A stretch of DNA of 64,000 nucleotides from Sphingobium chlorophenolicum (lineage in GTDB: Bacteria; Pseudomonadota; Alphaproteobacteria; Sphingomonadales; Sphingomonadaceae). Below, piece after piece: positions 39,691 to 47,042 of this stretch (the first letter of the stretch is position 1; every line of letters starts with the position of its first letter). The DNA is taken from assembly GCF_000722875.1 (NCBI RefSeq), contig NZ_JFHR01000017.1, positions 1 to 64,000 of the forward strand, in the 5' to 3' direction. The notes below the pieces were generated by a model. It did no database searches, was not told where the DNA came from, and saw only the letters and a list, made by a program, of their open reading frames with translations. The translations under genes were made by a program, and so were the position numbers.

Positions 39691-41064
39691 ATGAGCGGCG
39701 GAGCCCCTATCGATGCGGTGCGCACCGGGTCCGGCGCGGAGGCGGCGGTGGGCGCGGCGCTCGACGGCATTACCTCGGCCCGGCTCAGGATTGTCCCGCC
39801 GCTGCTGCTGGGCTTCATCATGCTGTTCGATTCCTGGGACAGCATCGCCATCGCCTATGTCATGCCGTCCCTGACCCGCGAATGGCATCTGACGCCGGTG
39901 GCCGCGGGCAGCCTGATCTCCGCGGGCTATGCCGGGCAGTTCGTCGGCGCGATCCTGCTGGGTTCGCTGGCCGAACGGTTCGGCCGGATGCCGGTGTTTC
40001 TGGCCTCGGTCGTCTGGATGGGATTGCTGGCGATCTTCTGCGCGCTGACGCCCGATTACGGGACGCTGTTCGCCCTGCGCGTGGTCCAGGGCGTGGCGAT
40101 CGGCGGCGCGCTGCCGGTATCGATCACCTATATCAACGAAATCGCGCCTTCCGCCACGCGGGGCCGCTACTTCGGCATATTCCAGTTCATCACCATGGCC
40201 GGTTACGCGGCGGCCTCCTTTTCCAGCACGGTCGTCATCCCTTATCTGGGATGGCGCTGGCTGTTCGCCTTCGGGGCGACGCCCCTGTTGCTGCTGCCGG
40301 TGGTGGTGATGCTGCTGCCGGAATCGCCGCGCTGGCTGGTCCGCAGCGGTCGCGCGGCGGACGCGGCGCGGGCGCTCCGCAAATTCGGCGATCCCACCGC
40401 CGAACCGCAGGCGTTCCACGCCGCCGGGTCGACAGCCGGACCCGCGCCGCGCCTGCCAGCGACCGTCCTCTTCTCCCCCGAATTCCGGCGGCGCACGACG
40501 GTCGTCATGCTGCTCTGGTTCTTCACATCCTTTGCCAGCTTCGGGCTGACGACCTGGCTGCCGTCCATCTATGTGTCGGTCTTCCATATTCCGGTGGCGA
40601 CGGCGCTGCGCTATTCGGCGACGGCCAGCCTGCTGTTCCTCGTCCTGGCCCCGACCATCGCGCTGGTGATCGACAGCGTCGGCCGCCGTCCGCTGGCGAT
40701 AGGCGGATCGCTGATCGCCACCTGCGCGTTGCTGACGCTGGGCTTCACCCTGCCGAAGGATGTGATGATCCTGGTGCCATTGGTGATTGCGGGTCAGCTT
40801 TCGATCTTCACCGGCTCCATCGTCCTGTGGCCCTATACGGCGGAAACCTACCCCACCCATGTCCGGGCGGTCGCGCTGGGCCTCAGCAGTTCGCTGGCGC
40901 GGGGGGCGTCCACGCTGACGCCCGTCGTCGTGGGCGCGATCCTGGCGAGCGGGGCTTCGGTCGCCATCGTCTTCGGCATATTCGGCCTGTGCGCCGCCGG
41001 GGCACTGATCCTGTGGGTGACGGCCACCAAGGAAACCGCCCGGATGCGGCTGGACGCGATCTGA
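39691..41064 (+). CDS. MFS transporter, aromatic acid:H+ symporter (AAHS) type
   Basis: A 457-residue, 12-helix carrier. GFIMLFDSWDSIAIAYVMPSL in helix 1 has the acidic residues typical of the AAHS family, and GSLAERFGRMPVF and VVQGVAIGGALPVSITYINEI follow. It is close in sequence to the carrier at 45573, sharing most of helix 1 and the first loop, which points to duplication. ATG at 39691 with GGAGG 7 bases upstream. Its stop overlaps the esterase start. It presumably imports the pathway's acid substrate. Confidence 0.9.
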   Translation: MSGGAPIDAVRTGSGAEAAVGAALDGITSARLRIVPPLLLGFIMLFDSWDSIAIAYVMPSLTREWHLTPVAAGSLISAGYAGQFVGAILLGSLAERFGRMPVFLASVVWMGLLAIFCALTPDYGTLFALRVVQGVAIGGALPVSITYINEIAPSATRGRYFGIFQFITMAGYAAASFSSTVVIPYLGWRWLFAFGATPLLLLPVVVMLLPESPRWLVRSGRAADAARALRKFGDPTAEPQAFHAAGSTAGPAPRLPATVLFSPEFRRRTTVVMLLWFFTSFASFGLTTWLPSIYVSVFHIPVATALRYSATASLLFLVLAPTIALVIDSVGRRPLAIGGSLIATCALLTLGFTLPKDVMILVPLVIAGQLSIFTGSIVLWPYTAETYPTHVRAVALGLSSSLARGASTLTPVVVGAILASGASVAIVFGIFGLCAAGALILWVTATKETARMRLDAI

Positions 41065-45169: not shown

Positions 45170-45199
45170 ACGCCTGATCGGCTCCCGAATCAAAGACCC

Positions 45200-45287
45200 G
45201 TCATGCTGAACTTGTTTCAGCATCCATTTCTCCCCACGCGCCTTGGCTTGTGGGGCACGATGGACGCAGAAACAAGTTCAGCATGAC
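45200..45287. repeat. REP-like palindrome
   Basis: GTCATGCTGAACTTGTTTC at 45200-45218 and its exact reverse complement at 45269-45287 flank a GC-rich centre. The 19 bp arms are perfect. The first 43 bases are repeated exactly at 47221-47263 without the right arm. It sits just after the BKACE stop codon and may also serve as a transcription terminator. Confidence 0.85.
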
Positions 45288-45308
45288 GAAGGCGATAAAG
45301 GCGCTGTC

Positions 45309-45576
45309 CTAGGCCGTAAACTCATAAATGGCGCGTTCGAGGTTTGAGGCAAAAAGGCCCAGCACAAGAAGAGAGGGCGCAGGAATATGTCGATATTTCG
45401 AGCCCTCTTGACGCCGGGATGGGCCTTTTTGGTCAAATCCGCAGGACGTCAAAATGGCTTCCATCTCGAACCGAAATGCGCTTGCAAAGGTGTCCAACCT
45501 TCGCGGCGCGCATTTCGGCCCGATATGTTCGCCATTTTGGCGCCTCGAACGCGCCATTTATGAGTTTACGGCCTAG
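45309..45576. mobile_element. MITE-like element with 34 bp perfect terminal inverted repeats
   Basis: A 268 bp non-coding element. The left end 45309-45342 starts CTAGGCCGTAAACTC and is repeated as an exact 34 bp reverse complement at 45543-45576. A TA (or CTAG) is present at each end and is probably the target duplication, as for IS630/Tc1- or some IS5-type transposons. An inner inverted repeat AAAAAGGCCCA/TGGGCCTTTTT is also present. No transposase is encoded, so it is a non-autonomous derivative. The right end includes the stop codon of the adjacent MFS gene. Confidence 0.82.
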
Positions 45577-46949
45577 ATCGTCTCCAGCTTTCGCCGCGCC
45601 GTTTCGGTCGTGGCGAATATCCAGAGCAACGCCGCCCCGAAGGCAAAGGCCGCGAAGGCGCTGTAGACCAGCGAAATCGCCGCCCCGGTGCTCAATATCA
45701 CCCCCACGAACAGCGGCGTCAGCATCGACGCCGCCCGCGCCATGGAACTGGAAACGCCCATGCCCACCGCGCGCAGATGGGTGGGGAAGCTTTCCGCCGT
45801 ATAGGGCCATTGGATGAAGGAGCTGAGCGCGCTGCCCAGCGTGCCGATCACCACCAGCGCCACCAGCGCCCCGGTGTCGAAGCGGAAGAGGGCGAGCGAC
45901 AGCAGCGCCATCCCTGCCGCGATGCAGCCGCCGATGGCATAGGGCCGCCGCCCGACCCGGTCCATGGTCGCGCCGATGAACGGCGTGGCGATCAGGAACA
46001 ATATCGGCGTCGCCGCAGCATAGCGCAGCGCGTCGGCCAGCGGGATATTATAGACCGTGACGAAGATAGACGGCGCCCAGGTGGTGAGCCCGAAATTGGT
46101 GAAGGCGACCGTGAACCAGATGCTCATCAGGATGACGGTCGATGCGCGCTGCCGGGGCGCGAACAGGGCGGAGATGGGAATCCTGGCCGGTCCCTGAAGG
46201 CTGGGCGCGGCGGGGCGCAAGTCGGCGTCGGTCAGATCGATCCTGCCGCCCAATTTGGCGAGCGCGCCCGGCACCTGTGCAGCGCGGCCGGTGCGCGCCA
46301 GCCAGCGCGGCGATTCCGGCAGCATCAGCATCACGACCGGCAGCAGCAGCAGCGGAATGCCGCCCAGCCCGATCAGCCATCGCCACCCCAGCATGGGTAT
46401 GACGACGGTGCTGGAAAGGGAGGCGGCGGCATAGCCGCTCATGCACAGCCACTGGAAGATCATGAAATAACGGCCGCGAGTCATCGTCGGCGCCAGTTCG
46501 TTGATATAGGTGATCGAAACCGGCAGCGCGCCGCCGATCGCCAGCCCCTGAACGAAGCGGATCGCCAGCAGCGCCTCCGGCCCCGGCGCGACGGTGCAGG
46601 CCAGCGCCAGCGTCGCCATGACCGCGACGGACGCGACGAACACCGGCATCCGCCCGAACCGTTCGGCCAGCGATCCGAGCGCGATGGCGCCCATGAACTG
46701 GCCGATATATCCCGAAGAGATCAGCGCGCCCATCATCGCGGGATGCAGGCCCCATTCGCGGGAGAGTGATGGCATGACATAAGCGATGGCGATGCTGTCC
46801 CAGGAATCGAACAGCATGATGAAACCCATCAGCAAGGGTGCCAATATGCCCACCCGAAAGGTGCGGAGATTGTCGAGCGTGTCCCCCACGCGCAGTTCCA
46901 AAGGACTGGCGGCCGTCCTGTCGGCCTGAGCAGCGGTCAGGCTGTCCAT
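45573..46949 (-). CDS. MFS transporter, aromatic acid:H+ symporter type (paralogue)
   Basis: A 458-residue, 12-helix carrier, a close paralogue of the one at 39691 (shared GFIMLFDSWDSIAIAYVMPSL in helix 1, GSLAERFGRMPVF, and IGGALPVSITYINEL). AGGAGAGGA precedes the ATG at 46949; the frame is open to 47012. The TAG stop lies within the terminal inverted repeat of the MITE-like element, at its TA end, and the protein still ends at the same point as its paralogue (ETARRKLETI against ETARMRLDAI). A degenerate LacI-type site is at 47043. Confidence 0.9.
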   Translation of the reverse strand: MDSLTAAQADRTAASPLELRVGDTLDNLRTFRVGILAPLLMGFIMLFDSWDSIAIAYVMPSLSREWGLHPAMMGALISSGYIGQFMGAIALGSLAERFGRMPVFVASVAVMATLALACTVAPGPEALLAIRFVQGLAIGGALPVSITYINELAPTMTRGRYFMIFQWLCMSGYAAASLSSTVVIPMLGWRWLIGLGGIPLLLLPVVMLMLPESPRWLARTGRAAQVPGALAKLGGRIDLTDADLRPAAPSLQGPARIPISALFAPRQRASTVILMSIWFTVAFTNFGLTTWAPSIFVTVYNIPLADALRYAAATPILFLIATPFIGATMDRVGRRPYAIGGCIAAGMALLSLALFRFDTGALVALVVIGTLGSALSSFIQWPYTAESFPTHLRAVGMGVSSSMARAASMLTPLFVGVILSTGAAISLVYSAFAAFAFGAALLWIFATTETARRKLETI

Positions 46950-47042
46950 GATGCGATCCTCTCCTGTTCCGGCCGGGCGTCCAGCGGATGCTGCGCCCTT
47001 TCTCGATGCCATTGCTTAGCTGTCCCGCAAGCAGGGCGCAAT

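Follow-up and report, generated by a model that had tools for sequence, protein, structure and literature searches.

What kind of element can land exactly on the stop codon of a gene, leave the encoded protein intact and come to lie in its 3′ UTR? The question is raised by a palindromic sequence in the window, the 64,000 nt stretch of Sphingobium chlorophenolicum contig NZ_JFHR01000017.1 analysed here. An initial annotation had described this sequence as a MITE-like insertion of 268 bp with perfect 34 bp inverted repeats, whose right end falls on the TAG stop of an MFS transporter gene. Our preferred reading, to which we assign a probability of about 0.6 from sequence comparison, is a non-autonomous element that keeps an RNA-like core and changes its ends, that would be mobilized in trans, and that may exert an RNA effect in cis within the 3′ UTR. 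The features on which the argument depends are as follows.

45310–45311, no strand: left TA of the target-site duplication, within CTAG (TA on both sides in 60 of 73 copies; YTAR in 51 of 51; empty site in Sphingobium G019)
45312–45342, plus strand: left terminal inverted repeat, 31 bp, GGCCGTAAACTCATAAATGGCGCGTTCGAGG; outer ~17 bp like the ends of IS5-family insertion sequences (ISs)
45348–45433, plus strand: arm 1 hairpin with the internal-loop motif ARGGA / GACGC; covariance model scores 99.4 bits (R1) and 87.1 bits (R2)
45438–45446, no strand: mini-hairpin linker joining the arms (TCC GCA GGA), which folds; columns 133–143 of alignment A1
45447–45542, minus strand: arm 2, a second long hairpin, inverted (inverted repeat I3); A-C:G-U of 17:6 on the plus strand for pairs predicted from both strands
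45543–45573, minus strand: right terminal inverted repeat, 31 bp, from complementarity to the left end and the end-sequence search
45574–45575, no strand: right TA copy, which with element base 45573 forms the regenerated TAG stop (sequence and orthologue end)
45573–47012, minus strand: MFS transporter gene, ORF of 479 aa, with its TAG stop at the element boundary; same end in the empty-site orthologue
39691–41064, plus strand: MFS paralogue ending at the equivalent residue without the element, from the ORF list (start as in the initial annotation; the listed ORF runs from 39214)

An insertion on a stop codon

The inverted repeat is exact. Positions 45309–45342 and 45543–45576 are complementary at 34 of 34 nt (100%), and with up to three mismatches allowed the outer end sequence occurs at two places in the window, both of them the element's own ends, where 0.01 would be expected. 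The limits first drawn for the element do not stand: when copies are compared, the outermost CTAG proves to belong to the target and not to the element, and the element proper occupies 45312–45573, which is 262 bp with perfect inverted ends of 31 bp plus target bases. TA flanks both sides in 60 of 73 delimited copies with window-type ends, a count in which many copies came from searches requiring TA at one end. In all 51 TA-flanked copies with enough flanking sequence, TA is preceded by C or T and followed by A or G (38 MITEs or mini-copies and 13 ISs; of the 22 copies left out, 13 have no TA on one side and 10 have a short flank, one copy being counted under both). Because these two positions vary independently, the duplication is TA inside a YTAR target. 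A 4 bp duplication of CTAG was ruled out, since copies with TTA or TAA flanks fit TA only.

The MFS ORF ends in TTETARRKLETI-TAG at the right end of the element, and this TAG consists of the target TA and the element's own G. Empty sites were sought by searching genomes of the genus with the joined flanks. Sphingobium G019 aligns across these flanks (82% identity, 7% gaps) without the element, its site reading CCTAAATCGTC (also given as CCTAAATCGTCTCC) with a single TA, and its MFS orthologue ends in TTETARRKLETI-TAG (LETI-TAG). G032 also lacks the element, and there the orthologue ends ...TARRKLETI with TGA, at the same residue. As both genomes without the element share this end, the MFS gene ended there before the insertion. 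The paralogue at 39691, for which an equivalent end had been noted, has the C-terminus ETARMRLDAI. The account first given, of an insertion into a TA within the stop codon that restored a stop and left the protein intact, is thus upheld by comparison with related strains. The accompanying claim that the natural 3′ UTR was replaced needs rewording: the 3′ UTR was displaced.

The element had also been called non-coding, and we concur. Its only ORF of at least 80 aa, an 82-aa frame, gave no Pfam match; of 34 alignable copies, 16 keep it open and 18 break it, and a protein product was rejected. A terminator or promoter role was set aside as well for the window copy, inside which no match to an intrinsic terminator or a promoter was found. 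Compared with shuffled sequences, the predicted fold has z = −14.5 as RNA (minus strand) and z = −15.1 as DNA (plus strand). Adjoining the element, at 45199–45288, is a separate 90 bp inverted repeat (GTCATGCTGAACTTGTTTCAGCATCC...) that has matches at many sites across numerous genomes of the genus. Its Rfam match to AaHKsRNA41, at 35.7 bits, is below the cut-off of 97, and only part of the repeat is present at the G019 empty site.

The first base of the element is G, so that TAG is restored wherever it inserts at a Y-TA-R stop, whether TAG or TAA, and on either strand. The combination of YTAR target and terminal G would therefore explain a cost-free settling on stop codons, followed by co-transcription within the 3′ UTR. 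Exactly on a TAR stop are 20 of 52 MITE-size insertions, three of them common to the stops of two convergent genes; 24 others are intergenic, 6 lie in coding sequence and 2 at edges. All MITE-size copies entered this count, among them nine whose flanks are short and which all lie away from stops. The remaining YTAR sites of the flanking sequences served as a control, and 24 of these 286 are at stops, with 128 intergenic, 133 coding and 1 at an edge. The enrichment at stops is significant over all sites (Fisher test, 2e-7) and among non-coding sites (20 of 44 versus 24 of 152; 1e-4); removal of one thrice-seen site leaves 18 of 50 at stops, with values of 2e-6 and 5e-4 respectively. Mini-copies are at stops in 2 of 7 cases and IS copies in 4 of 14. 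The 73 insertions form a modest sample, for which empty sites were rebuilt by script and genes were taken from a simple home-made codon-usage caller. Target sequence and selection against harmful insertions explain part of the enrichment, and what remains of it counts as modest evidence. Relative to the upstream gene the core has no consistent orientation, a result that is expected if either strand works and that lends no positive support to a cis effect.

Elsewhere in the S. chlorophenolicum genome, a 53 bp end-to-end mini-copy without a core (G000:C43:27885-27942; L016:11386-11442) likewise sits on a TAG stop, that of a 524-aa ORF. The copy on contig C38 is not on a stop; a TAA that lies five bases inside its end closes a frame of 489 codons. 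A 10 kb composite transposon considered for C43 was set aside, its right 'end' being the complete 53 bp mini-copy and its left a degenerate solo end.

A core that recurs with many different ends

The genome carries three full-size copies, one of them with different ends, together with the 53 bp copy and solo ends. Within this one genome the core thus occurs with GGCCG ends and with GGGTCAGTACCC ends; the copy on C47 has a core 92% identical to that in the window and ends reading GGGTCAGTACCCATTAATTGCACC. Ends of the GGGTCAGGACCC or GGCTCAGGACCC type are also found on copies in Sphingobium G019 and G049 and in Novosphingobium EMRT-2. Ends like these lie near the borders of S. chlorophenolicum contigs C1 and C23, beside a stretch that, judged by eye, resembles the end of a transposase; a 44-aa piece gave no Pfam match. 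In the genus as a whole, 13 of 94 genomes have blastn matches to the element, this genome included, and some of the matches are partial.

Forty-one elements were delimited around arm matches. Thirty-six exceed 240 bp, of which 34 measure 260–274 bp and the others 280 and 303 bp. In one set of 30 loci, boundaries were obtained for 19 (one a spurious short palindrome) and none for 11, comprising nine incomplete loci and two whole ones (L214 and L221); in 29 further loci, four were too short to examine and two had no inverted repeat. With nine more elements added, the resulting 50 fall into 20 end groups under simple single linkage at a similarity reached by ~0.1% of shuffled pairs, and truly unrelated groups may be fewer than 20, because several share their first five to seven bases (AGAGC, ATACC, TATACCC) and L227 is perhaps mis-delimited. 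The sequences show that the same core occurs with many different ends.

Further copies and a transposase gene with matching ends had been proposed as things to look for. Other copies exist, as described above; in this draft genome no IS with exactly these ends was found, and a protein search returned two distant fragments only. The genus does contain ISs of 1.0–1.3 kb with similar outer ends and the same YTAR target. In two of these, L030 (1178 bp) and L083 (1047 bp), two frames together specify an IS5-family transposase (DUF4096 at 3e-31 and 1e-28, DDE_Tnp_1 at 6e-9 and 2e-19, respectively). Ends of the GGGTCAGGACCC type also have a partner, an 842 bp element in G198 with an IS5-family transposase in two frames (DUF4096, 3e-17; DDE_Tnp_1, 2e-9). 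The partner ISs would belong to an IS427-like subgroup of the IS5 family. L030 also carries a passenger ORF of 102 aa upstream of its transposase (positions 1578–1886), which has no Pfam match.

The existence in the genus of ISs with like ends and the same target agrees with the suggestion in the initial annotation that the element may spread in trans, and supports putative mobilization by ISs sharing its ends. The element resembles these IS5-family ISs (DUF4096 / DDE_Tnp_1) in its terminal ~17 bp, its TA duplication and its YTAR target. In contrast to the transposase of the ISs, its interior holds hairpins only, and comparison of 41 cores with 14 partner ISs gave no blastn match at E 0.01. 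On this result, descent from a partner IS by simple internal deletion looks unlikely and was rejected. At the level of sequence, then, the comparisons show a YTAR site with TA duplication, IS5-family-like ends (DUF4096 plus DDE_Tnp_1) and a conserved inverted pair of predicted hairpins.

The description as MITE-like is also sound: the element is short and non-coding, it has terminal inverted repeats and a target-site duplication, copies are dispersed in the genome, and an autonomous partner with similar ends is present in the genus. As it fits the sequence definition of a MITE, we class it as a MITE variant.

Evidence for a putative structured RNA and competing explanations

The predicted fold consists of the 31 bp outer stem, arm 1, the mini-hairpin and arm 2. 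Since the arms are inverted, each DNA strand encodes one sense hairpin. Alignment A1 spans 270 columns; its 31 elements, selected because they resemble the window copy, come from Sphingobium, Novosphingobium, Sphingomonas, Roseibium/Labrenzia and one unclassified Pseudomonadota MAG. RNAalifold predicts 83 pairs in A1, 51 of which have at least one compensatory double change. In alignment A4, composed of 48 arms, 27 of 29 pairs have double changes and 94.5% of cells pair, with a covariation score of 0.80 compared to a mean of 0.22 for shuffled alignments (0 of 500 as high) and 0.10–0.14 for slid ones. A4 and the 60-arm alignment A5 are made up of model matches above thresholds, and a model-fitted alignment favours pairing; despite this fitting, covariation in the arms is hardly in question, given the slid control and how many pair types occur. 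The compensatory changes exceed both shuffled and slid controls, as those of a structured RNA would.

The distribution of the arms is wide. The arm 1 model R1 matched 11 of 289 class-wide genomes, and the improved model R2, in a scan within Pseudomonadota at E ≤ 0.001 per genome, matched 83 of 398 genomes in 57 of 213 genera (both counts include S. chlorophenolicum). Carriers outside the sphingomonads include Roseibium, Labrenzia, Magnetospirillum, Halomonas, Azotobacter and Catenovulum. Arm matches are present in nine of ten genomes searched via named loci, the Asticcacaulis genome having none, and number up to 48 in Sphingomonas sp. IC081. Relatives reside on plasmids too, and a search of phage records with one gamma-type element gave no match. 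In 19 of 66 sources R2 identifies one arm on each strand; in the rest it finds a single arm or none. Arm 2 of the window has no R2 match, and in the related copy L127 the model finds arm 2 only at E = 0.006; judged by these scores, arm 2 of the Sphingobium type has drifted.

A known RNA family was ruled out at the thresholds used, as Rfam 15 gave no gathering-score match for the window region and 20 loci (21 sources). One sub-threshold Rfam match, to the mir-15 model on L248 (E 0.14), overlaps an element.

Three characteristics of the arms point to RNA rather than DNA. Among the 60 arms, the conserved unpaired bases are A26 (97%), G28 (92%), A78 (98%) and G80 (92%), and G27-C79 is paired in every one. 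Columns 29 and 77 covary in a non-canonical manner, being A-G in 40 arms, C-A in 19 and C-G in 1. Arm 1 of the window departs from the motif at one base, with A for G. By our own reasoning, a kink-turn reading of the loop was discarded, as the bulge and the tandem G-A pairs have a G-C pair between them. A variant motif, AAGGCG..CAACGCC in place of AAGGAG..CGACGCC, is present in L242, L244, L245, L251, L255, L256, L257 and similar arms, many of them from outside the class to which the window belongs.

The third characteristic is a strand bias in mismatches. Counted in cells, which are not independent events, the motif strand of the 60 arms has 88 G-U against 15 A-C, leaving out one pair that is G-U in 33 of 60, and 15 second arms have 29 against 3 with the mostly-G-U pair kept in. 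For pairs predicted from both strands of the window-type alignment, G-U:A-C is 16:16 in the outer stem, 11:3 in arm 1 and 6:17 in arm 2, values drawn from few columns (six pairs with G-U and two with A-C in arm 1, five and eight in arm 2). Pairs predicted from the plus strand alone give 65:3 for arm 1 and 29:18 for arm 2, where a single pair, U-G in 21 sequences, contributes most. A reversed bias in arm 2 is expected if this arm functions on the other strand, and the mismatches point to the minus strand as its probable functional strand.

These characteristics bear on the alternative that the element is an ordinary MITE, whose palindromic interior is functionless and is kept by DNA-level processes such as template switching and arm conversion. 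Long hairpins can indeed be kept by template switching, and much about the element would suit this account: the TA duplication, the IS-like ends, the lack of a credible gene, the outer stem without strand bias (16:16), and size variants of 136–182 bp (whole-arm deletions) and 363 bp (extra hairpins) of the sort that slippage would give. However, arm correction would erase mismatched internal loops, which are instead fixed in place across many different ends; the strand bias of G-U over A-C is confined to the arms; the A-G / C-A exchange is non-canonical; and the 41 cores have no blastn similarity to the 14 partner ISs at E 0.01. We therefore regard an ordinary MITE as unlikely.

We give still less credence to the element being a 3′-end insulator, in which hairpins on stop codons would terminate or separate convergent transcription. 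Such a role would suit the 20 of 52 insertions on stops, the three common to two convergent stops, and the window copy, which sits between convergent genes. Against it, the window copy has no terminator-like match, 24 of the 52 insertions are elsewhere in intergenic DNA, and termination does not need a conserved loop motif. Least probable, in our judgement, is that the arms work as folded single-stranded DNA at the replication fork or in conjugation or uptake, for example as protein-binding hairpins that aid transposition or integration: the DNA fold is strong (z = −15.1), relatives occur on plasmids, and a G-T mismatch is milder than A-C in DNA as well, yet both the ends and the TA duplication are typical of DDE elements, which work on duplex DNA, no bias is seen in the outer stem, which as single-stranded DNA would fold too, and no likeness to an integron attC core site is apparent by eye.

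The reading we prefer, a mobile element with an RNA-like core, could operate as follows. Resident transposases of the cell would move the element in trans, and its line would survive by keeping the core and changing the ends to suit whichever IS5-type, or perhaps other, transposase is present. Landing on stops is expected to be harmless, and transcripts of the host gene would then run into the element. An effect in cis on these transcripts is the leading interpretation, as insertions favour the 3′ ends of genes and each strand carries one sense arm. The transcribed hairpin may act through protein binding, RNA stability or RNA processing, which is the least certain step, and action of this kind would account for the retention of both pairing and internal loops. 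We infer that selection acts on the transcribed arm. A broader proposal, which we advance tentatively and with somewhat less than even confidence, is that these are phylum-wide mobile RNA cassettes: the transcribed two-hairpin RNA would be the unit of descent, repeatedly gaining new ends, usable in either orientation, carried between genomes by different transposases, harmless on stop codons and active on host mRNA.

Relation to known repeats

The usual view of bacterial MITEs is of short-lived remnants of a single insertion sequence. Relatives of this one structured core in about one-fifth of sampled Pseudomonadota genomes, with ~20 end groups among delimited elements, suggest instead a parasite or passenger lineage of long standing that switches transposase. 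The arms suggest a new structured RNA motif with a testable consensus, and the element lends itself to studying how a mobile hairpin in the 3′ UTR affects the transcripts of its host.

ERIC, Correia/NEMIS and RUP repeats are each generally confined to particular lineages and have one set of ends. Passages on these repeats in PMC2229807 and PMC10969869 describe short sequences of ~100–200 bp with TA termini whose transcripts form long stem-loops, and mention effects on mRNA via RNase III or RNase E, which in the case of ERIC occur at the 3′ ends of genes as well. ERIC and NEMIS are precedents for RNase-mediated effects. Unlike these families, the present one has a two-armed core of ~265 bp with conserved internal loops, and occurs across a phylum with many ends.

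CIR elements (Chen and Shapiro 2003), as outlined in PMC2229807, are ~110 bp long, carry GANTC and are without a 5′–3′ stem. Like our element, they are in that outline repeats of alphaproteobacteria in which a linker connects two hairpin arms. In contrast to CIR, the present element has an outer stem, and 36 of the 41 window-type elements of 240–300 bp have no GANTC. Membership in CIR was ruled out by size (34 of 41 at 260–274 bp) and by the absence of GANTC in 36 of 41. For comparison, R2 matched 3 of 60 genomes of the Asticcacaulis family. QMITE2 of Coxiella, also a palindromic MITE, has partial relatives in the alphaproteobacteria Bradyrhizobium and Rhodopseudomonas, and a passage in PMC5896051 notes a stop-codon context. 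Its direct repeats of 7–9 bp and core of 113–145 bp, as given in a passage of PMC10969869, set it apart from our element so far as that description goes.

A search of open-access full text, with subscription journals outside its scope, yielded no description of this element family. What appears to be new is the combination of a phylum-wide conserved, RNA-like core with exchange of ends.

Two further observations concern individual copies. The sequence GTAGTGYTA recurs at insertion sites, in the left flanks of L126, L137, L138, L188 and L193 and the right flanks of L131 and L083; at L083 it adjoins a 414-aa ORF with a DDE transposase domain (DDE_5, 9e-42), which suggests a hotspot in the end of another insertion sequence. 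In Roseibium, the 363 bp copies are L182:4748-5110 and L184:479-841; arm 1, as seen in L182, contains ~100 nt of additional hairpins, and the flanks of L184 are identical to those of a 264 bp copy in L179.
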